A stretch of DNA of 64,000 bases from Dioscorea cayenensis subsp. rotundata (taxonomy: Eukaryota; Streptophyta; Magnoliopsida; Dioscoreales; Dioscoreaceae). The stretch covers positions 19,712,386 to 19,776,385 of the forward strand of contig NC_052481.1 in NCBI RefSeq assembly GCF_009730915.1. The letters run 5' to 3'. Both the position numbers and the translations under genes were made by a program. A model generated the notes under the pieces. The model was not told the origin of the DNA, searched no databases, and worked only from the letters and a program-made list of their open reading frames with translations. Position 1 is the first letter of the stretch. Each line of letters begins with the position of its first letter. Positions 36,702 to 59,480 of the stretch are shown here, one piece after another.

Positions 36702-38330
36702 TCAGGCATAGGCCAATTCTGATTCAACCATACAATCATCAAAGTCAGAGGACTTGAGTTGCACATCAGTTGCTTCCACTACAGACATGATCTCCTCCAT
36801 ACACATGTGAGACCGATCTCCAGCAACAAACTCACAAGCCACACCATCTATCTCAATCATGCTACATCCAGGCACCTTCATCACCTTCTTCTCCTCCATC
36901 CCCTTTCTCACCTGCAATACATCTTCCCACTGATCAGCTGATGCATGCATGTTTGAGAGAAGCACATGAACACCACTATGATCAATCCCAAGTTTCACTA
37001 GACTTTCCACAGTTTCTTTGCCCAATTCCACCTCTCCATGCACCCTACAAGCATTTAACAAGGCTCCCAAAACATATGGGTCAGGTTCCATAGGCATCTC
37101 AAGGACAACCCTCCTCGCTTCCTCTAGCAATCCCGCCCGGCTCAAAAGGTCTACAAAGCCTCCATAATGCTCCACTCTCGGCTCAATACCATAAACTCTA
37201 TTCATACTATCAAAAATTTGTCTTCCTCGATCCACCAGACCCATCCGACCACAAGCACTGAGAACACAAATGAAAGTCACCTCATTCGGCCTAACACTTT
37301 CATTTTCCATGCTATCAAACAATTCAATCGCCTTCTCACTGTGACCATGATTTGATAACCCTGAAATCATGGATGTGTAGGCAAAAACATCTCTCTCCGG
37401 CATCTCATCAAACACTTTCAATGCATTCTCAATGCAACCACACTTGGCATACATATCTATCAGTGCAGTCCCTAAAATCCTGTCCAGCACCATCCCATTC
37501 CTCTCCACATATACATGTATCCACTTCCCCTGATCCAAAGCCCCCAGAAAACCACACGCAGACAAAGCACCAACAATTCCAGCTTGATTCGGCTTCACAC
37601 TAGCAAGCTGCATCTCATTGAACACCTCCAGCGCTTCCTTAAACATTCCAATCTGTGAATAAGCAGTAATCATGGAACTCCAAGAAACCTCATTTCTCTC
37701 AGGCATTCGATCAAACAACTCCCTTGCAACATCAATTCGCCCAGATTTCGCATAACCGTGAACCATCGCAGTCCAAGATATCACATCCTTGTTGGTGCTC
37801 AAATCAAACAAGCGCCGAGCGGAATCCAAACACCCGCAACTTGCGTACATATGAATCAATCCATTGAGAACAAAATCATACAACTCCCAACCACGCTTCA
37901 AGATCTGAGTATGAAACTTCCGGCCGTCAAACAAGGAGGAGAGCTCAACGCAAGCGCGGAGCACGAAGGAGAACGTGTAGTTATTGGGGGAGAAACCGGA
38001 ACGGAGCATGTGCTTACAAAGATAGAGAGCATCAAGGGGTTGTTTCCGATCAGCGTGCGCGCGGATCATAGTATTCCAGGCGAAGGCGGTAGGACGGCGG
38101 AGGGCGCCAAATACGGCACGGGAATGGGCGAGGTCGCCGTCTTCGGAGATGGCATAGAAGGCAAGGAGCTTGGCGGCGGCATAAGGGTCGGAGATGGCGC
38201 CGGAGACGATGAGGCGGGCGTGGAGATGGTGGATTTGGGCGATGGTGAGAAGGAGATGCTGGCATCGATCCAAGAGCATTAGAGTTCGCTTGTCGGATTT
38301 CATGCATTTCATAGCTCGCGGGAACATCAC
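36702..38330 (-). CDS. PLS-class pentatricopeptide repeat protein with E domain
   Basis: A single intronless frame of 542 residues, as usual for this family. After about 40 residues come alternating P, L and S repeats, for example RPTAFAWNTMIRAHADRKQPLDALYL, KDVISWTAMVHGYAKSGRIDVARELF, LGTALIDMYAKCGCIENALKVF and NEVTFICVLSACGRMGLVDRGRQIF. An E motif follows at the end (VLGALLNACRVHGEVELGKE, VLLSNMHASADQWEDVLQVRKGMEEKKVMKVPGCSMIEIDG), then an E+-like stretch. There is no DYW deaminase domain. Such proteins select C-to-U editing sites in mitochondrial or plastid RNA and recruit a DYW partner. No clear transit peptide can be called by eye. The target RNA is unknown. Confidence 0.93.
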   Translation of the reverse strand: MMFPRAMKCMKSDKRTLMLLDRCQHLLLTIAQIHHLHARLIVSGAISDPYAAAKLLAFYAISEDGDLAHSRAVFGALRRPTAFAWNTMIRAHADRKQPLDALYLCKHMLRSGFSPNNYTFSFVLRACVELSSLFDGRKFHTQILKRGWELYDFVLNGLIHMYASCGCLDSARRLFDLSTNKDVISWTAMVHGYAKSGRIDVARELFDRMPERNEVSWSSMITAYSQIGMFKEALEVFNEMQLASVKPNQAGIVGALSACGFLGALDQGKWIHVYVERNGMVLDRILGTALIDMYAKCGCIENALKVFDEMPERDVFAYTSMISGLSNHGHSEKAIELFDSMENESVRPNEVTFICVLSACGRMGLVDRGRQIFDSMNRVYGIEPRVEHYGGFVDLLSRAGLLEEARRVVLEMPMEPDPYVLGALLNACRVHGEVELGKETVESLVKLGIDHSGVHVLLSNMHASADQWEDVLQVRKGMEEKKVMKVPGCSMIEIDGVACEFVAGDRSHMCMEEIMSVVEATDVQLKSSDFDDCMVESELAYA

Positions 38331-46518: not shown

Positions 46519-48707
46519 ATGGAGAGTTTTTTATACCTAGACCAAAGCGGTATGAAGGGAGAACACATTAATTGGTATAATCACAAGTTTGAATTAACAT
46601 AATTTTATAACATTTATAAATTTTTAAAAGTTGAATTCAGTACCCCTTAATTTTATTTCTAGTTCCGCCATTGACTATCGATGCACTTGTGATTGGGCAC
46701 ACTTGCAACCCGCCCAATGATAATGCTCACGTGGCTTCCACCAATGCACGCTCGCTCCTGGCATGATGCTCGCAAGTGTTCTTACACCTGGCACCAATAT
46801 CTTTTTGCTTAGCTTTGAACTTGGGTGAGTTTACCCCCTTGGAACATACTAATAACTAAGGATTCCAAACTCACCGGTGGCCCAAGTGAATGTTAGCGAT
46901 ATATTTGTAATTTCAAATAAATTTGAATTTAAAAATCAATTATTTGTACAATAAGAAATTTTTTGATATATGAAAAATGTTAGGGATTTTTTTTTTCTGA
47001 AATGCCAAGAATAGGAGGGAGGTTCTATGATGCTTTCTTAAAAAACCTTATATTTATAAATTCAAGGAAAAATGCAGGAAGTTTTATTCTTCCTGGGTAG
47101 TTCCTCTGACATTACATTATTCCAGAGAATCCCTATTTTATCAAGTTTATTCCAATTTCATCCTTGTCGTTTAGTCCGTTAAATTGTTTTCTATATATTA
47201 CCAGAAATGCCTTGTCAGCTGAAAGAAGTAAAAAAAATTTCAAACTCCTATCCGGTCACGTTGACTTTAGGGATGATATATGACCTAATCCTAAGGGACG
47301 ATATATGACCCTCATTCTATAATAAAGCAACTATTCGCATAACTCGAAGATAGAGATCGACGGGGAAAAAGATTGCAGGGAAAAATTTCTCTAGACAATG
47401 TTTGGTCAGACTATAAAGAAAGCGAAGGGGTATGCCAGATAAAAGGGAGGGAATACGGGTATCCTTATGTATATGGTAGCAATTGCCCAAGCGTCCCTTC
47501 CTAATGCTGGCGGTTGGGGGTCATTTTCATTTTTTCACGTTGTGCTGATATTGGCATGATGTTGAGGGTAGTTCTGTAATTTTCAAAGAGAGTTAACAAC
47601 CATTAATAGAATATGGATTGAAAAGTAAAATAAAAATAAATAAAAATAACTTATTATGGACACCAAAACTTGGAGGAATTTTTTGAGGAAACTCAAACTA
47701 TAGAGGGACTATAAGTTACTTCACTGTAGATTCAATCCAAAAAAATTGAATTAATAAAAAAAAATCCAAATAATATTTTATAATTGAAAAACTTCCGCTT
47801 TGTATGGATCAAATATAAAATATACAGAATAATAATTGTATTATATATTGATTATTAGTAAAAAGGCAAAGTTGATGATGAATAAGCACTTCAATCTTGA
47901 TGGGCAGTCTGTGGCACATGATCTCTAATTCTCTATCCTCACGACCCAAATCTTCTTCTGACTCTTTTGTCCTTTGATTCCTAAAAAAAGTAATTTAGAG
48001 AAAATAAAAAAAAAACTCATGATTCCTTACTTAAAAGAAAAGATTATTGTTTTTAAACTATGTAATTTTTGTAATTAGCAAAAAAAGAAAAAATCTTTAA
48101 CGTGTTAATTTTTTGCTTTTTTAGTATAGGTAAAATCATCATTTTATTTTAAAAAATGTCACATAGCATTAAAAAAACATGATTTTGAATGTGGTTTTAT
48201 TTTATTTGTTAGATTTTAATTTTTTTAATAAAATTTTGAAAGAAATTAATAAACTTTAAAAGATATATATTTTTATTTCATGTGGGTTAATTTTTTTAGT
48301 AAAATAATAATTTTATCCTTGTGAATTAACACTGTTAATGATTTATTAATGATTTTTTTATTAGCTTGGAAAACCACATAGTTTTAAAAATAAATTCTTG
48401 TTCTTCTGTTTTTTAAAAGTTCGAACCACAAGTGCTTTTTTTAATGTAATTTTTTTTATTTTATTTATATAATAAAAAATTCAGTAAATTTTATCCACAA
48501 TGTCATAGGGTTTGCAGTACAACTGTATTGATCCAATTATGAAAGATGTTGGTGTAAGATATTTAAAAGATCTCGAATTTAAGTTCTACTGAACACTAGT
48601 AATGAATCGTAGGTTGGAAGTTTGGGTTAATGACCCAAATTCTGTGTCATCCAGTGATGATGTAAAGGTCCCTTGATTATGGATTCTGACTTGTTAGATT
48701 CGTAAAT

Positions 48708-48789
<82 letters not shown>

Positions 48790-48900
48790 ACAATGCTCTG
48801 TTAGAGTAGAAATGAGTCTGTTTCATATTTAATTTTTGAAAATGGGGCAACATTTGGGTTTAGCCATTAATTGCGTAATATTTAATGTCTGTGTTGTTTA
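46519..48900. other. Intergenic DNA with unassigned moderately GC blocks and a long (TA)n
   Basis: Blocks at 46660-46890 and 47000-47590 are less AT-rich and may be old transposon remains, but I could not assign them. A (TA)n microsatellite of about 75 bp runs from 48713 to 48787. No gene seen. Confidence 0.5.
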
Positions 48901-48908
48901 GTAGAGTA

Positions 48909-49163
48909 CTCTCTCCGTTCTTTTTTATCTGTCGTGATTAATCAAATCTCATATACTAAGAAATATAGTTATTTCACAAAATTTTATAAAAAAAGTAGAT
49001 ATCTTTATATCTTCACATTTCACTCTCATATTTAATTCTAAGAAAAGAATTGAAATGAGTGTCAAGGGTAATTTTGGAAAAAGAATTATAAATGCTTCTT
49101 GATGTTAGAAAATAACAGATAAAAAAAAATAGATTTGTGACAGATAAAAAAGAACGGAAGGAG
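48909..49163. mobile_element. Stowaway-type MITE, 255 bp
   Basis: Starts CTCTCTCCGTTCTTTTTTAT and ends ATAAAAAAGAACGGAAGGAG, the classic Stowaway (Tc1/mariner) terminal repeat, flanked on both sides by TA (48907-48908 and 49164-49165). No coding content. Confidence 0.93.
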
Positions 49164-49738
49164 TATTATTTAAGATATTTTATATTTTAAATATTTTTTT
49201 ATCTAGTATCATGGTTCATCAAATGAATGAATGAGTACACTAGCACTCCACATTAGTATAATATTTATGTAGATTTTATTAATAAAATACTATGTAATAT
49301 ATAAAATATTCCAAATAATAATCTATCAGATTAAATATGTACATTTGAGATAGTTATGAATTACTATTTATGAACTCTTGAGGTATTAGTACTGGGTCTA
49401 TGCACAAGGTGTTTTATGTTTGTACTGCAGAGAAAATAAGTTTGAACCTAAACCAGTGAAGAATGAACATACACATAATTTATAAGTAATTCTCTGTACA
49501 GTTTTTTATTTTTCAAAACGTAACCTTTTGATCTTTATATTTTTTTTTCCACTTTTCAGATTCTTATACTATTTCAAATGTGGCCCATTGGTCCATTATG
49601 TTTGCCATTTAATTATGCTGACGTGGCCAACACGTGGCTTTTTTTACATTGGTTAATAATTTTATCCTCACACATGATTTTTTTTAATAAATTAAAAAAT
49701 ATTAAAAATAAAAAAATATCAAATATAACGTAATAATA

Positions 49739-50130
49739 GGCTTTTTTAAATATTACAAAAATTACTAAATTACGCATGTTTGGGATTATTTACCAAAATA
49801 TCTTGAGTTGGTGGAAAACGGTAAACCTTTTCCCGTTTTCAGCTTTTTATTTTTAATTTTTAATATAGAAAAACGGGAGAGGTTCTCCGCTTTTTATTTT
49901 TTTAATTAGGGATTATGAAAAGCGGGAGAAACTCTCCGCTTTTCAAATTGTTTTAAATTTTTAATAAAAATAAAAACGGAGAGTAACTCCTTTTTGTAAA
50001 GCCTTGGATTCCATCCCAGTAATGTTGTTAGCTTTTTAAATTTTTTTGTTTTAAGCCTTGGATTCCTTGTCCCCAGTAATGTTGGTTAGCTTTTAAATTT
50101 TTGTTTTAAAGCCTTGGATTCCTTGTCTCT
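49739..50130 (+). repeat. Left TIR of the MULE, with about three sub-repeats
   Basis: Outer about 250 bases are hairpin-rich (repeated GGAGA/TCTCC blocks in both directions). The inner part has tandem sub-repeats of about 50-55 bp starting at AAGCCTTGGATTCC near 49998, 50053 and 50109. Confidence 0.85.
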
Positions 50131-50163
50131 GACAGTCTTTTGTCTGCGTCATCCAACAAGGAT

Positions 50164-51183
50164 ATGAAAAATATTAGTGGATCTATGATATTACTTCAAT
50201 CATGGGCATGGTATAGGATTTCAAGTATATCCCCTCAAACCCGTGGTATCGTATCCTTTCCTCTGGCTCGTAGGTGAGAGCAAATTAAATTGATAATTCA
50301 TTTTACACTTAATTATAATACATTGAAATTATAATTCATTCTCATTTTTCAGGTGGGCGCACATTGAAGTGGATGATGATAGCCGTAGCAACAAGCACAA
50401 TGTGAAGATATATAGGCAGCTACTAGATCGGTTGGAGATGCAACATGTAATGTTGTTAAAAACCGATAATTCATACACTATATTTTTAGGTATTAATAAT
50501 CATTGATTATTTCGTAAATAATTTTGAACAGCTTTTATATGGCGGCCTTATGATTCGAACGAGATAATTGCACAAGTGCCACATGACATTTTCGCAGATG
50601 CAGACCTTTTATGGACCTGCGTTTACATCATTGATTTGCTTCAAGTTGTTGAGTGGCACCAAAACGGATCGAGCGACAAGACAATTTGCCGCCCAAGGTG
50701 TTCCTCTCGATCCAGTTTGCATTGGACCAACTCATGATCATGATCTTCGTGGTAGAATTGACACAGATTGGGCATTGATGCACGGAAGATGGATTGGATA
50801 CTGGAGAGATAGAGCGTCACGTTGCCTCGACCTCCATGTTCCCTCGCCGAATAACGCAATGTCGGTGGAATATTATGACCGATATACTACTAATACCATA
50901 CTATTTTTTTATCGACGGATCGGGGACCCTGCTGGATCCCTCGATGCGAGAGGGAACACTCTTCCAGCGCCCCTTAGAGCGCTTTCCAACGAGGGTTGTA
51001 GATGTGCCACCACCGAGTCCTCCTCTGCACGACGACGTCATCCAAGATAGTTCTCGGGTCGAACACGACGAGGCACATATTCCCTCGACACTCACATCAC
51101 GAGGGGTACCAAATCATTTCACTCATCCGGATGATATCAACGCTACTCGATCATCTCATCTCCATGGATTTCCTCCAGCTTGA
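50164..51183 (+). pseudogene. Plant mobile domain (PMD) gene of the MULE, frameshifted
   Basis: Likely exons are about 50164-50273, 50353-50446 and from 50532 on. They read ...IVSFPLARRWAHIEVDDDSR, then WRPYDSNEIIAQVPHDIFA, then DADLLWTCVYIIDLLQVVEWHQ, the body of the aminotransferase-like plant mobile domain. Near 50660 an extra A in a CAAAAC run shifts the frame; the other frame continues TDRATRQF, GVPLDPVCIGPTHDHDLRGR and DTDWALMHGRWIGYWRDRA. A second frame change near 50920 leads to a Pro-rich tail ending at 51183. The PMD is found both in host proteins (MAIN, MAIL1) and in transposons; here the TIR context shows the transposon form. The 5' part of the domain was not recognised. It is broken as written. 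Confidence 0.82.
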
Positions 51184-51743
51184 GCCCAGCAGATACTCGG
51201 TTGATTTCGGGATGGACTTTTGTGCGGAATTTATTTGAATATCAACCTCATCATCCACCCATGGGAACGCTGGACAATCTAGTCATTCAACTTCATTTCG
51301 GCAACAAGACTGGGAATCACCTCCAAACCCTTCGTACTTTGCTGCGAACCTGAACACTCCAACACTTTCAAAGAATACGCTGATCTCGGATGAATCATCC
51401 GATGATGACCCGCCACCGAGCGAGCACGAAGACCCTAGGCCACGGGACCCGCTCGACAGAGATATTCACCCACCCTCAATGTTTTACCGAGAGGTGGCAG
51501 TCAGAGACTGATAGAGTAGACTCTTGTATTAGTTGTTGTTTTTTTCTTTATTGTCTACGCGAAACTATCTTAGGTTGATTTTTGCTTGGTGTTCTATGTT
51601 GTGTATTTTTTAAATTTACTTTTTTCTTTGCATTTGTCTTGTCTTCATATGCTTTTAAGAAAAGGCTTTTAATGATAACTCATTGCATGTTATAATTATA
51701 TGAAAGGCTTACATCATTAAAAACATTACAACGAAAAAGACAT

Positions 51744-52795
51744 TTAGACTATATTACGACCGAGTACTTGGACCCGGCGATGTTGGGACAATTTCGGGCG
51801 ACTATGTCCTTCGTGCGTACATAAACCACAACGTTTTCGCTGAACACCTTCCCTAATATCCATCTCGTTACGAATCCTTGTAGATTTTGGTCTTCCTTTC
51901 GTCGGTCTTCTCATCGTAATATTAGGACGTAGACGTGGACCATTATAAGGGTTCCAATATCCCTCATTTGATACTCGGCTCAAACTCTTTACGATATACA
52001 TTAAAAAGCTGCTTTGAAGCCTATACACGCTTGTCAACATACTCCTCCCAATGTAGACGAATATGCGAGCATGTCTGCAAGGACATGTCGACATGGAAAA
52101 TGCAGCGTCTGAAAAGCACCACAGTCGCACCAATGTGATCTTAGGTTGATCACGAAAAGTGCTAGCTTGTCTCCCACATTGCGGGGTGACATCTCATCTA
52201 CCATGAATGACTTCTCTTCACGGCCAAATTGACGAACGTAAATGCCGGACCGCTTGTTGATTTTCTGGATTGCCTTCATTAGTGATTCCGGGAAGATAAG
52301 GCTCGATGCGATCCGAGCTTGCGCCGTACACCTTTCCTTACAAATAACTCCGCAAGTCGAAGTACGCTGACTTAACCATAGTCAGTTATAGGAAGGTTTC
52401 TTGTTCCCTTAAGCAATCGAATTAACACATTCCGCGAGGTTGGTTGTCATGTGACCATATCGCCTCCCTTCTTTATCGAACGCTTGAGCCCACTTCTCCC
52501 GCGGTATGTTATCCAACCATCTCGCCGCCTCTTCATCGTTGTCTCGTAGTAAACCATACCAAGAGTTAAAATCTTGAATGGTTTTCGAATAACTCGCAAT
52601 AAAGTGAACTTAAAAAGTTAAGATAACTTCGATGAATTAACAACAATGTAAGAGTTAGATTAAAAAGTTAATCTTATAACTTGCCAATATCGACAACTAT
52701 TCGTCTGCATTTCTTTGTTTCGAAACGACGCATGAAAATTGGCCGAGATATGTCTAACTGCAATAAACATGTGCACGCACGAGGAGCACTCATCT
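51744..52795 (-). pseudogene. MULE transposase fragment with SWIM zinc finger, several frame breaks
   Basis: Read on the minus strand from about 52795: VHMFIAVRHISANFMRRF, then (after a probable intron at about 52580-52675) WYGLLRDNDEEAARWL, IPREKWAQAFDKEGRRYGHM and TTNLAECVNSI. The frame then breaks into LKGTRNLPIT and further pieces. The SWIM finger is seen at 52279-52034 as WCDCGAFQTLHFPCRHVLAD (CxC...CxH). In another frame follow MRRPTKGRPKSTRI and KRCGLCTHEGHSR, the usual C-terminal basic and zinc-knuckle end. The catalytic DDE core upstream of this is not found; the place where it should lie is filled by the minisatellite. A dead, 5'-truncated transposase. Confidence 0.87.
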
Positions 52796-52884
52796 CACGG
52801 CCAAGCGATCTAAAAAGTCGATTTGATAGATTCATGGCGATCAGATATAAAGCATATTCCTTGTTGTGGTGTTACACTAGAACG

Positions 52885-53515
52885 TCCCAAACACTGAGTG
52901 GTGTAGGTTTGACCGACGTACTTAGTGCCTGACCGTGCAGTTCGACCGTCTCCGCTTGTGCCAAACACCGAGTGGTGCGCAGTTCTGGCCGTGCTTTCAG
53001 ATCTTTCGTGGCGGCGAGTTTGATCGCCCTCGCTTTGGTCCCAATCATCGAGTGGTGCGGGTTTGATTGTCATGGTTTGTCCGATCAGCGAGTGGTGCGA
53101 GGTTTGACGGCAGCACTTTGTCTTGGCTGAGTGCGAGTTGATCATCTCGCTTTGTCCCGATCAACGAGTGGTGCGAGTTTGGCCGGCGTGCCCGTCTTGG
53201 CCGAGTGCGGTTTGAGTCCCATCTGCTTTGTCCCAATCATCTGAGTCGCGCAGTTTGATCATCATAGTTTGTCCCGATCACTGAGTGGTGCAGGGTTTGA
53301 CCAGCGTCTTTGTCTTGCTGGTGTAGGCTTTGAGTATCTGCTTTGTCCCAATCACTCGAGTAGTGCAGGGTTTTGACTAGAGCGTCTTCGTCTGGTAGTG
53401 CGAGGGTTTCGACCGTCCCCGCTTTGTCCTAATCACTTTCGAATAGTGCGGGTTTGGCCGGCGTGCTTAGTGCTTGAGTGCGAGGTTTGGCTGTCACTCT
53501 TGTCCCATCATGAGT
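52885..53515. repeat. Degenerate GC-rich minisatellite inside the MULE
   Basis: About a dozen units of roughly 40-60 bp, each with a GAGTGGTGCG(G)GTTTGACC-like block and a CTTTGTCCCAATCA-like block. Units diverge by substitutions and small indels. It lies between the transposase fragment and the right TIR. Confidence 0.85.
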
Positions 53516-53522
53516 GGACGAT

Positions 53523-53599
53523 ATGAAGTGGGAAGTGGGAAGTGGGAAGTGGGAAGTGTGAAGTGGGAAGTGGGGGCAGTGGGAAGTGTGAAGTGGGTA
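53523..53599. repeat. GAAGTGG heptamer repeat
   Basis: About ten copies of GAAGTGG or GAAGTGT with one GGGGCA interruption, directly after the minisatellite. Confidence 0.9.
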
Positions 53600-53764
53600 T
53601 TATATAAAAAATAATATTAAAATAATTCAACGGATATATTTATATCCGTTAGTAAAAGGTTAATATAGTTGTGTTCATTTGTCGAAAAGCTAAGTAATGA
53701 GAATCTTTTAACAAATTTAAAAACTAACCAACATTTAATGAGAATCTTTAACAAATTTAAAAGC

Positions 53765-54159
53765 TAACCAACATTACCAAGACAAGGAATCCAAGGCTTA
53801 AAATTTAAAAGCTAACAACATTACCGATGACGTAATCCAAGGCTTTAAAACAAAAAAATTTAAAAGCTAACAACATTACTGCGACAGTAATCCAAGGCTT
53901 TAAAAACAAAAAACGGAGTTACTCTCCGTTTTTATTTTTATTAAAAATTTTAAAATAATTTGAAAACGGAGAGTTTCTCCGCTTTCATAATCTTTTAATT
54001 AAAAATAAAACGGGAGAACCTCTCCCTGCTTTTCTATATTTAAAATTATAAAAACCGAAAAACGAAAGCGCCATCTGCTTTTCCACCAACTCACGTATTT
54101 TTGCAGAATAATCCCAAACATGCGTAATTTAGTAATTTTTTGTAATATTTTAAAAAGCC
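53765..54159 (-). repeat. Right TIR of the MULE, with about three sub-repeats
   Basis: Reverse complement of the left TIR with scattered differences. The sub-repeat GGAATCCAAGGCTT (or TAATCCAAGGCTTT) occurs near 53787, 53831 and 53889. Confidence 0.85.
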
Positions 54160-54312
54160 CGTAAACAATAAGGATCCAATTATATTATATCCAATTACTT
54201 TACTCTTTACTCTCTGTCTCTCTCTCTCTCCCTTTCTGCCCTAACCTCCATCCCGATCATCTCCCATCTTCTTCGCCGACGATCGTCCCGATCAGCCTTT
54301 CCCATTCCTCTT

Positions 54313-54775
54313 ATGCTCTCTCTTCTCCGCGAATGCAAATCCACGCCCCATCTCAACCTAACCCTTTGCATCCTCTTCACCTCCGGCCTCTCCTCGCATC
54401 GTACTCGCCTTCACCTCCGCTGCGTTTCATTAAATTAGATCGCTCGCGCCACCGGATTCTTCTTCTTGGAATGCCATCCGATGCTTATTATGCTCTGATG
54501 GTCAGTGAATGCGTGATTCCTAATCAACATACTTATTATCCTTTACTCTTGAAATCTAAGTCCGGAATTGAGAGTAAAAATGTAAACTTGATTCATTCTC
54601 ATATTGTGAAGCTTGGATTTGATTGTGATCCGTTTGTGAGCAACTCTTTTTGTGGTATGTTATGCTGGAGTTGGTGATTTTGAGTCTGTCAGTGAGGTGT
54701 TTGATGAAATGCTCAGAGAGAGAGATAGGAAGATAGTTTCTTGGACTCCTTTGGTTCATGGGCATATCAAGTGAG
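54313..54775 (+). pseudogene. PPR gene fragment (PLS type, N-terminal part), frameshifted
   Basis: ATG 54313 opens MLSLLRECKSTPHLNLTLCI and LFTSGLSSHRTR, a typical start of a PLS-class PPR protein. The frame soon breaks. A second frame reads YYALMVSECVIPNQHTYYPL, SKNVNLIHSHIVKLGFDCD and PFVSNSF; a third reads GVGDFESVSEVFDEMLR and IVSWTPLVHGHI-type sequence. Nothing of the later repeats follows. The fragment is flanked by the inverted arms of the outer structure and its probable 5' leader lies inside the left arm. It is a captured or broken gene piece, not a working gene. Confidence 0.78.
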
Positions 54776-54910
54776 GTTTTCCAGGAAAAGATTTGAGTTT
54801 TTTTGTGAAGATAAAAAATGAAGATGTTGAGATTGATGAGGTTAACTATTGTTATTGTAATTAAGAATGCAGGGATGGTTGGAAATGTTTGGTTTGGGAG
54901 ATGCATACAT

Positions 54911-54978
54911 GGGGAGGGCTGATCGGGACGCTCGTCGGAGAAGAGGATGGGAGATGATTGGGATGGAGGTTGGGGGAG

Positions 54979-55022
<44 letters not shown>

Positions 55023-55905
55023 AAGAGTAAAGTAATTAGGGTTATGAAATCTGGTTTGGATATAATTGGATCCAAACTGTTATGTTATTTTAATATTTGA
55101 TTTTTCACTTTTTATTTATTTTTTCTTTGTAGTCATTTATTAAAAAAAATCCACATGTGAGGATTAAGTTTTTAACTATTTTAAAAAAATATATTATATA
55201 TTGGCTATACTAACATAATTAGATTTGGACAGTAAATATGACAGTCATCTTGAATCGGACTAATTGGACACATTTGAAACAGTATAAGAATTTGGAAAGA
55301 GTAAAAAGAAAAAAAACAATACAAGGATAATAAAATTACGTTTTGAAAAATATAGAGATTACTCTCATAATTTAAGATTAATGTGTGGTTTATTTTACAT
55401 GGGGAGGGCTGATCGGGACGCTCGTCGGAGAAGAGGATGGGAGATGATTGGGATGGAGGTTGGGGGAGAAATTGAGAGAGAGAGAGAGAGAGTAAAGAGT
55501 AAAGAGTAAAGTAATTAGGGTTATGAAATCTGGTTTGGATATGATATAATTGGATCCAAACTGTTATGTTATTTTAATATTTGATTTTTCACTTTTTATT
55601 TATTTTTTCTTTGTAGTCATTTATTAAAAAAAATCCACATGTGAGGATTAAGTTTTTAACTATTTAAAAATATATATATATATATATATATATTGGCCAT
55701 GCTAACATAATTAGACTTGGACAGCAAATATGATGGTCATCTTGAATCCGACTAATTGGACACATTTGAAACAATATAAGAATTTGGAAAGAGTAAAAAG
55801 AAAAAAAATACAAGGATAATAAAATTACGTTTTGAAAAGTATAGTATAGAGATTGCACGGAGAATTACTCTCATAATTTAAGATTAATGTGTGGTTTATT
55901 TTACA
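54911..55905. repeat. Tandem duplication, two units of about 490 and 505 bp
   Basis: Unit 1 (54911-55400) and unit 2 (55401-55905) both start GGGGAGGGCTGATCGGGACG and end TGTGGTTTATTTTACAT. They differ by a longer (GA)n in unit 1, a (TA)n expansion in unit 2, and a short segment around GATTGCACGGAGAA present only in unit 2. ACAT precedes unit 1, ends unit 1 and ends unit 2, a likely microhomology at the junction. Confidence 0.92.
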
Positions 55906-56240
55906 TTTTGTTAAAAGAAAATTGTGAATAATTATATGTACGGTAATATTTAAATTTTTTTTTAAAAAAATATATAATATATTAGATCATTAAAAAGGAG
56001 GATTTGGGCATATGATTCATGCATAGGGATTATGATGATGATGATATATCCCTGTTGTCGTGGTTTTACATGACAAGGTTGCTTATTGTTGGCCCTTGAA
56101 CCAAATCACCCCGACACAAAAGTTTAATTAAAGAAAGCCTCAACACACCCCTCCTATCCCAACATCACCAATAAATACTTCACTTTTGTACTGCTCCATA
56201 AAATAAATATATATTTATATCTATGTTAATAGAATTTACA
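55906..56240. other. Intergenic DNA
   Basis: AT-rich, with a small (GAT)n patch near 56034-56046. Nothing else recognised. Confidence 0.5.
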
Positions 56241-56242
56241 TT

Positions 56243-56605
56243 AATTTAATTTAAATTGTTTAATTAAATACTCTCTCAATTTTTTTTTACTTGTCACATT
56301 AAAATTTTATATATATATAATTATTATTAAAAGATTGGTGCTTTATTATATCAAATATTTTACAGTATTTTAATTTAAACTGTTCAATTAAATACTCAAT
56401 TTTTTGTACTTATCACATTAAAAATTTTCTTATATAATTATTATTAAAAGATTGGTGCTTTAATATATCGAATATTTTACAATATTTTAATTTAAACTGT
56501 TCAATTAAATACTCTCTCAATTTTTTTTACTTGTCACGTTAAAATTTTTCATATATAATTATTATTAAAAGATTGGTGCTTTAATATATTGAATTGAATT
56601 GTTTT
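56243..56605. repeat. Three tandem units of about 115-120 bp
   Basis: Each unit has TTAATTTAAA(C/T)TGTTNAATTA-type sequence, AAATACT(CTCT)CAATTTTTT, CTT(G/A)TCAC(A/G)TTAAAA, then AATTATTATTAAAAGATTGG and TGCTTTA. Unit starts are near 56243, 56370 and 56488. The middle unit lacks the CTCT. Confidence 0.88.
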
Positions 56606-56742
56606 ATTTTATTATTTTTAAAAATATAAATAATTATCTTATCTTTTTAAAAATTAGTAATAGATCAATTTAATTAATGATAAATTAAAGTCTTTTACTC
56701 ATTAAATAATAAATTATGATATTATTTATAAATTAATAATAA

Positions 56743-56775
<33 letters not shown>

Positions 56776-57880
56776 AATATTATATTAATTAATTATACTA
56801 TCTTATTTTATTTTTAATGTTATAGTTTTTTCCCTCTCTCTTATATACAAAAAGTTAAATTTTTCAATCAATTATTTATATTTGATATTTTTAAATTAGT
56901 CATCAAGCTCTTATTAAAAGATTTCCCCGCCAAAACTTTAAATATTCTAATAATATTAAAGTATTTATAATATAATATATATATTATATTATATTATATA
57001 ATTTTATGAAAATTTTAAGTCGTCTTATCTCATAATATATAATAAAACTAATTTGCATGTTTCAATAATCAAATTTTAAAACTAGTCTATTTTTAAAATT
57101 AATAAATACAATATTTTATATTATTTAATTTTTAATGTAATAATTTTTTTTTATGTAAATGGGAAGCTAGAACAAGTTTTCATCAATGAATTATTGAGAT
57201 TAATCTTTTTAAAACAACTTCTTATATAGCGAGATTTCATAAGATGGTTTTCATGATAAACAAGTTTTTTGCTTTTATTAGTTTTTTTATTTAATATATT
57301 ATTACATGTCTTAAGTTTATATTTTGTATTTACAAATTATTTGAGTGTAGCTTGCTAGAAATTTTTTTTGGGCACACTAAACTATAATTTTTTTCAATTT
57401 AGTAACTCAATTTTATTTTGAATCAAATTAGTAAGTTATTTCGATTAAATATCACCTACAGGTCACCCGAGTGTTTTCCACAACTCCTTTGATGATGTCT
57501 CTGTTGGAGAAGCCCAATCAGCACCCTGTTGACATGTCATTTACCTTAGGCGCTGTGTCCACATCATCTAAGTCATTCCACGATGGATAGATCCCGCCAT
57601 GTCACCAAATCTCAAGAGACCTAGTTAGAGAATTTACACAATACACAATTAATATATTTAAGCATGCATTATTTAAAGTAGACATCTATAAATTCTCCAT
57701 ATACCAAATTTACATGGCTCTTAAGTAGAAAAGCAAACTTGTAAACAACACCTATGTTTGTTGTCATCATCTGAATCTTTTACACCTGAAATTAGAAAAA
57801 AAAAAAATTAATATTAAGTCTGCCCATTTTCTCAAGGACAACATACATAAAATCAAATAATTGAGGAAAAAAACATAAAT
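56606..57880. other. Very AT-rich intergenic DNA
   Basis: Has (AAAT)n at about 56739-56771 and TATA-rich stretches near 56960-57000. A block at 57400-57620 is less AT-rich and transposon-like but unassigned. No gene seen. Confidence 0.5.
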
Positions 57881-57889
57881 TTTATTCCT

Positions 57890-59480
57890 CCCCTATTCTG
57901 AGGGATGAGCGGAGACGCTGGCCCCATGTTTGTTCCCTCGACGGTCACGTGTATGTGATGCCTCCTTCCTTTTTCCCATGCGGGCAGTAGAGGAGTGGGG
58001 AGCTTCCTTGGCCCTTTGATGTCGAGGAGGAAGTTGAGGGAGCGTTGCAGCTTCTTGACCTCGATATTCGGGGACACGGGAATTGCCATCCTTGTGGTGT
58101 TTGGTCCTCACGCTGGGCTCGGGAGTGATGGAGCTTGGCCCCGTCTCTGCTGGGTTCTCCTCACTTTGAGGATGATGAGGAGGAGGGAGAGGTTGGTGCT
58201 TTTGTTGCACCCTTGGAGTCATTGTTTAGGGTGGAGCGAGCGAGTGTTGAGGCGGTAGAGCGTGGCTCCCGCGAGGGGGTGTGGAGGTCATTCCTGTTGT
58301 GGTTGTGGTGGAGCGTAGCTCTCATGCCGAAGTGGAGCTAGGTTACTGAATCATAGGAGAGGTTATGGCTGTGGCGGAGCGGAGCTCCCACGCCGGAATG
58401 AAGCTGGGTTACCGAGATGGGGTTCTAGTTGGGGGGGTGGAGGCCATTCCAGTGGAGGTGGTGGAGCGGAGCTCCCACGCCGGGTGTGAGCTCATCACCG
58501 AGTCTGAGGTTCCAGCTGATACGGCAGTGGAGCTGAGGCCCCACCAAGCCTGGGAGTCCCGCCGAGGCTGTGGTGGAGTGGGGGTCCCTAGCGGGAGTTG
58601 AACTTGGTAATCGAGATGGGGATACTGGTGAGGCGGTGGTGGAGCGGGGCTCTCGTGCCGGTGTGATGCTTGGTCACCGAGATGGGGCCGCCAGGATCGT
58701 GGGCGAGCGGAGCTCCCAAGACAAGGTGGGTCTGCGGCGGAGCACGCATGTTGGTTGGCATCATCGGCACTCCTAGTTGACAAGATGTCAGATCAGGGGT
58801 TTATTCGAAGTTTGATATGGTGCTGGTGGTCGAGAGGTGCCGCCTCCCAGCGAAGCTTTGTCTCAGCGGCGCTGGCCGGAGCCTGTGGTGGAGCCGGGTC
58901 GGACTAAGAGCTCGGACGAGGGCTCTGGCCTCAAAGAGATGGCGATCGATTGTTGGGACGAGGAGCGCAGGCGGAGCTCGACTGCAACGACGTGTCGTGT
59001 GTAGGCGCCCTTGACTACGGTGAGGTGATCCACCTCTTTCATGCATTTGTTTTTGGGCTTGAGTATTATTAGCCATGCCGATCCCGGCCTTATTTTCTGT
59101 TTGGTTTAAGGGCCCTTCTTGGTCTTGTGAAGTGAGTTTGATTATACTTCTAATTGGCATTGGGCCACTTCTAGTGGTGAGGGAGTTAAGCAAAGTTAGC
59201 AAGGGGAAGCTGGGTCAAGGCTGGGCCCTAATCCGATCAAGGCCCCGCCGACAGAGGTTCGGGGGAGGACCCGCTTTGGTATTAGGCTAGTTGTTCATGT
59301 CTCCTCTCCTTCCGGGAGTTCCGCGTCACGGGCTTATCTTTATGTTATTGGCCGTGATGTTCTCTCATATCTCGCCCACGCCTAGTGGATTTTCAGATTT
59401 TGGCCTATTTTCTAAAGAATGCAAGTGGTTTATCCACTTTTTCAAAAATAAAAATAAAAATAAAATAAAATAAAATAAAT
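57890..59480. repeat. GC-rich island with degenerate repeat array, probably transposon-derived
   Basis: Sharply GC-richer than both flanks. From about 58230 to 58740 a block GTGGTGGAGCGGAGCTCCCA plus a GGTTACCGAGATGGGG-like block recurs about five times with changes. On the plus strand it can be read in pieces as (V)VERSSHAGxxLGYRDG-like peptide repeats, interrupted by stops and frame changes. The island ends in an A-rich (AAAAT)n tract at about 59443-59480, like the tail of a retroposed element. I do not recognise the protein and cannot name the element. Confidence 0.5.

Follow-up and report, generated by a model that had tools for sequence, protein, structure and literature searches.

How did a piece of a PPR gene come to lie between two inverted arms, one of them broken and the other doubled, in the genome of Dioscorea cayenensis subsp. 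rotundata? The question concerns one interval (Table 1) of the window, by which we mean the whole stretch of 64,000 nucleotides that was analysed. We read the locus as the relic of a Pack-MULE that carries a piece of a PPR gene, was split by a PMD-MULE and had its right TIR doubled, and we put the probability of this whole reading at about 0.94. The host looks AT-rich (33.6% GC).

Table 1. Features of the locus, in positions of the 64,000-nt window.
Feature	Position	Strand	Remarks
Left TSD CATAATTTA of the Pack-MULE	49474..49482		9-mers identical and flush with both TIR termini
Left TIR, outer part	49483..49738	+	its final 10 bases (49729-49738) form the left half of the candidate target duplication of the PMD-MULE
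Nested PMD-MULE, 4421 bp	49739..54159	+	TIRs GGCTTTTT...AAAAAGCC; relatives are longer (~8.3 kb)
Broken PMD (PF10536) coding remnant in the nested MULE	50110..50930	+	frame-shifted; intron-like gap near 50275-50350
Transposase C-terminal remnant with SWIM zinc finger, in the nested MULE	52037..52381	-	PF04434, E=3.2e-7
Left TIR, inner part, CT-rich	54160..54303	+	its opening 11 bases form the right half of the candidate target duplication of the PMD-MULE
Captured PPR gene piece (pseudogene), 605 bp	54308..54912	+	parent G000:C1:4219437-4220119
Right TIR, inner tandem copy R1	54913..55365	-	self-BLAST, genome search
TSD CATAATTTA copy and 26 bp of host flank ending in TACAT	55366..55400		TSD copy 55366-55374; part of the tandemly duplicated unit
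Right TIR, outer tandem copy R2	55401..55871	-	self-BLAST, terminus anchoring
Right TSD CATAATTTA of the Pack-MULE	55872..55880		flush with the right terminus
Host flank ending in TACAT (duplication breakpoint repeat)	55881..55906		sequence comparison

Inverted arms and their relatives in the genome

Comparing positions 48000-58000 with themselves by BLAST bears out the description in an earlier note: the arms are inverted, the right one stands in two tandem copies, and the nested MULE has TIRs. The outer left arm is similar in inverted orientation to R2 over 49485-49716 and to R1 over 49507-49716. The inner left arm is similar to both right copies over 54193-54305 and to R2 also over 54164-54194. 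When the left arm is joined across the MULE it scores 418 against R1, and the maximum in 300 dinucleotide shuffles is 104.5; the outer left arm alone scores 222, with a shuffle maximum of 102.5. The inverted similarity that the earlier note had claimed is thus confirmed, but its starting point at 49450 is not, since the left TIR starts at 49483, the right TIR ends at 55871, and the remainder is TSD or host flank. The left and right arms are ~78% identical, in a set of figures whose outer-arm values also cover 36 bp (49447-49482) that have since been assigned to flank and TSD, and the similarity peaks at the inner end. The use of this divergence as a clock was rejected because in six relatives (L009, L011 and L013-L016) the longest TIR pair is itself ~66-84% alike.

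With R1 as the query, the assembly to which the window belongs (584 Mb, 2249 contigs) yielded 33 matches, most of them in minus/plus pairs like that of the window. The arm is present in both orientations in 11 of the 12 loci that were fetched, the exception being L012, which has one orientation only. Interiors between the inverted arms differ among the relatives, and the outer ends share a terminus close to GGAGTAATTCTCCGTACAG. In the window, the left terminus has TA in place of the leading GG, and the right terminus differs in its last base.

The flanks of 11 relatives were compared after anchoring the termini on the best match to GGAGTAATTCTCC, with L012 omitted for its single arm. Flush 9-bp flanks match at 9/9 positions in L010, L011, L016 and L020 and at 8/9 in L009, L013 and L019, that is, in 7 of 11 relatives by raw count. 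The flank match in L009 is low-complexity A/T, and L010 reaches 9/9 though its termini score only 12 of 19. With the anchored termini, no 9-bp flank match was found in the other four (L014, L015, L017 and L018). The right terminus scores low in L017 and L018 and the left one in L015; L014 has good termini (16 and 17 of 19) yet flanks of 0/9. The window element has CATAATTTA on both sides, at 9/9.

The inner, CT-rich part of the arm occurs in both TIRs of five of the 12 fetched relatives (L009, L013, L014, L015 and L016), in one orientation in L010 and L012, and as two internal pieces in L011; it is absent from L017-L020 and from the parent PPR locus. Between the TIRs of L009 there are matches to MULE (PF10551, 2.8e-5), DBD_Tnp_Mut (MuDR DNA-binding, PF03108, 4.7e-4) and SWIM (PF04434, 0.0025), each below the Pfam curated cut-off and in broken frames. 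A Mur-ligase piece (6.7e-9) lies between the TIRs of L011 and a GeBP-like gene piece (1.6e-6, just below cut-off) between those of L013, and the fetched relatives of the TIR family gave no PPR match. L017-L020 are MITE-like, 311-345 bp long by their anchored ends, and consist of little more than the TIR of this family. The arm pattern had 0 matches in viral contigs, and a bacterial promoter scan is uninformative for a plant.

Because inverted pairs recur in the genome, termini are shared, most of the tested relatives have 9-bp flank repeats, and the inner arm lies in the TIRs of relatives and is absent at the parent locus, the arms are the terminal inverted repeats of a MULE family. The family is Mutator-like, since transposase remnants in L009 occur together with 9-bp TSDs and long TIRs. 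The marks by which a Pack-element is assigned to the MULEs are all present: long shared TIRs, a flush TSD within the usual 9-11 bp, and a relative (L009) with MURA-type transposase remnants.

The captured PPR piece and its parent gene

When the interval 54306-54910 was used as a query, the genome yielded two matches, the piece itself and the locus on contig C1 listed as its parent in Table 1, where a PPR protein frame of 626 codons is open. The piece is 92.2% identical to the parent over 590 aligned bases (K2P 0.083), with deletions of 43, 13, 38 and 1 bases and insertions of 3, 1, 4, 6 and 1 bases. Substitutions at codon positions 1/2/3 number 15/13/18, and so there is little sign of constraint. 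The parental frame encloses both ends of the piece. The parent lacks the ATG at 54311 and has its in-frame ATGs upstream. Among the 585 21-mers of the piece, 116 are identical to the parent, and the longest exact run is 77 bases. Its identity as PPR is indicated by Pfam matches below cut-off and by a 1.4e-39 match to a synthetic PPR-DYW protein. A PPR fragment is indeed enclosed by the arms, as the earlier note had held, though it is 605 bp long rather than about 595 bp. The possibility that the PPR gene continues to the right of 55906, which would make the right arm an insertion in the gene, was rejected: the frameshift-aware score is 7, and 76 of 150 random stretches and 43 of 100 AT-matched ones score at least as high. 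Elsewhere in the window, a 542-codon open frame on the minus strand (36702-38330) is PPR-like and only distantly similar to the captured piece.

The element thus holds a fragment of a cellular gene and no transposase of its own, the other coding remnants between its TIRs being those of the nested MULE. The recurrence of inverted arms in the genome, the TSD and the parent gene together uphold the earlier description of a Pack-type TIR element that encloses part of a PPR gene. The search of the assembly found this PPR-bearing element once, so that its mobility after capture rests on the TSD.

The Pack-MULE is a non-autonomous Mutator-like element of the TIR family with terminus GGAGTAATTCTCC, and it copied ~685 bp from the coding sequence of the PPR gene on contig C1, the frame of which is still open. 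For such an element to move, a MULE transposase must act on its TIRs. The Pack-MULE was presumably moved in trans by a MURA-type transposase from a relative such as L009, whose own copy is now broken. Its insertion at this locus with the 9-bp target duplication CATAATTTA is evident from the sequence.

The nested insertion and the doubled right end

The nested MULE has TIRs of ~390 bp that are 82.8% identical. It is flanked by the imperfect direct repeat CGTAATAATA / CGTAAACAATA, which differs by one indel and one substitution and is set against an expected TSD of 8-11 bp. Its PMD match has E=2e-16 for a reading joined across frames and covers profile positions 161-343 of 347. The TIR has at least 92 matching pieces in the genome, with 40 of the 264 first-look candidates scored, and two relatives span ~8.3 kb. 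Set against one of its relatives, L025 (G000:C8:4830800-4839600), the window copy lacks ~2 kb near 52884 and ~1.85 kb near 50150. In L025 the plus strand carries PMD (1.4e-21), and a match to the MULE domain that narrowly misses the cut-off (6.5e-6) lies on the minus strand. MULE TIRs together with a PMD domain define a PMD-MULE, and both are found here, with the SWIM remnant and L025 beside them. Divergent tandem repeats occupy 52884-53466 inside the nested MULE and are ~69-73% alike over the longer pairs.

Where the PMD-MULE inserted, the joined left arm can be aligned without a break to R1 and R2 alike, so the right arm does serve as the internal empty-site control that had been proposed. 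The left TIR of the Pack-MULE was thus hit by another MULE, a shortened PMD-MULE with TIRs of a different family; this is shown by the alignment, and the TIRs and the PMD and SWIM remnants substantiate the earlier claim of a 4.4-kb MULE in the left arm.

On the right side, self-BLAST finds head-to-tail copies (54906-55400 and 55396-55906), which resolve into tandem units at 54911-55400 and 55401-55906. R1 and R2 are 96.1% identical over 485 aligned bases, in agreement with the head-to-tail duplication of the right arm read earlier. TACAT occurs at 54906-54910, 55396-55400 and 55902-55906, and a match of at least 5 bases was seen at 1.2% of 20000 random breakpoint pairs in the region. The inner copy is followed by the TSD CATAATTTA and 26 bp of host flank (55375-55400). 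Because R1 includes both, the duplication is placed after the Pack-MULE insertion. The copies of the right end are shown by their alignment. The right TIR, TSD and 26 bp of flank were duplicated head to tail between the 5-bp TACAT repeats, presumably through replication slippage or microhomology-mediated repair. Both the PMD-MULE insertion and the right-TIR duplication are later than the insertion of the Pack-MULE, and the two may have occurred in either order. AT-rich direct repeats with a period of ~120 bp, 88-91% alike, lie just outside the element at 56235-56594.

Alternative readings and known systems

Two other histories could give a similar layout. The arms could be the promoter and 5' UTR of the PPR gene itself, with an inverted copy placed into the coding sequence by template switching and no transposon ends involved. 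A PPR frame does start at an ATG that lies a few bases into the left arm, the inner part is CT-rich like a 5' UTR, and arm similarity is greatest at the inner end. This model was dropped, and we give it virtually no credence, after the arms were found repeated in the genome, mostly as inverted pairs, and flanked at the locus by a flush 9/9 TSD. The inner-arm sequence, moreover, belongs to the TIRs of relatives with no PPR match and is absent at the parent locus, where the in-frame ATGs are upstream and the window ATG is not conserved. The doubled right end also recalls the MULEs with tandem TIRs of Ferguson and Jiang, in which one extra TIR stands in tandem (PMC3310237, in the excerpts available), and the right TIR could have been doubled before the element inserted. 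In those elements the extra TIR lies within the TSD, and the same excerpts report no recognizable TSD at internal TIRs, whereas here the CATAATTTA target duplication comes directly after R1, with 26 bp of local host flank behind it. R1 and R2 are also 96.1% identical against ~78% for left and right. A doubling that preceded insertion is thus most unlikely.

A further set of alternatives concerns function. The locus may be an active source of silencing, giving dsRNA and 21-24-nt RNAs from TIR-driven or read-through transcripts against the parent PPR gene or the TIR family. The predicted fold of the inner stem and loop (54160-55100) is far better than that of shuffles (z -12.4; 0/20 shuffles), the 116 21-mers and the 77-base run noted above match the parent exactly, and a potential antisense regulatory role was proposed by the grapevine authors for a CACTA element with a PPR piece (PMC2528002, in the portion at hand). 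Against this, and against the hairpin silencing of related PPR genes that the earlier note had raised, the PPR piece would form the loop and TIR sequence the stem. In addition, 4.4 kb of foreign sequence interrupt the left TIR, and the parent frame is open. The TIRs are only ~78% alike, and the passages seen of PMC4858842 argue that divergent TIRs do not fold into hairpins. We regard active silencing as unlikely. It is very unlikely that the TIRs act as convergent promoters flanking the PPR piece, so that a sense/antisense pair over it, with its 77-base exact match, would tune the parent in trans. The Pack-MULE locus is instead most likely an immobile, decaying relic without function, because its left TIR is split, its right TIR is doubled and its PPR frame is broken.

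The earlier note knew of no description of this exact structure, but structures of its kinds, namely Pack-MULEs (PMC8903248), MULEs with extra TIRs (PMC3310237) and a PPR-bearing CACTA (PMC2528002), are all in print, to go by the available parts of these papers. Pack-MULEs, or Pack-TYPE elements, are well described in such text of PMC8903248. The window element resembles them as a non-autonomous TIR element of a MULE family with a gene fragment between its TIRs, a 9-bp TSD and an identified parent; measured against that text it differs in nothing of kind, except that the window copy is broken by later events. With the multiple-TIR MULEs (Ferguson and Jiang 2012, PMC3310237) it shares one end with two head-to-tail TIRs; unlike the elements in those excerpts, the doubling takes in TSD and host flank and hence is post-insertion. 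The Discussion of that paper states that the mechanism of gene acquisition by MULEs is yet to be understood. Grapevine Cactavine-5 is likewise a TIR transposon with a captured PPR piece, but according to the portion of PMC2528002 at hand it is a CACTA with the piece in opposite orientation downstream of the transposase, whereas the window element is a MULE without its own transposase.

The nested element and L025, with PMD and MULE transposase remnants, resemble the MULE-encoded plant mobile domains of Ikeda et al. 2017 (PMC5418596). The sections of that paper drawn on here describe PMD-transposase fusions in grasses and Amborella, whereas L025 has PMD and transposase on opposite strands. Mu killer (PMC3440606) and PAI1-PAI4 (PMC3203196, where small RNAs are reported for PAI) are, in the extracts available, also inverted repeats with the potential to give hairpin RNA, but in those systems the inverted arms hold the sequence of the silenced gene, and in the window the gene piece is in the loop.

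Each event at this locus is of an already known kind, and here the events are readable at the single-base level. Work by Jiang et al. in 2004 is reportedly cited for Pack-MULEs. The locus adds one example to known processes and opens no new question. It is useful for annotation, where the PPR piece ought not to be listed as a gene. The rearrangements can be ordered from the sequence, as an insertion followed by a nested insertion and a tandem duplication. In this genome, a MULE family is now documented whose members carry gene pieces (PPR, Mur ligase and GeBP), one of them with a traceable parent.
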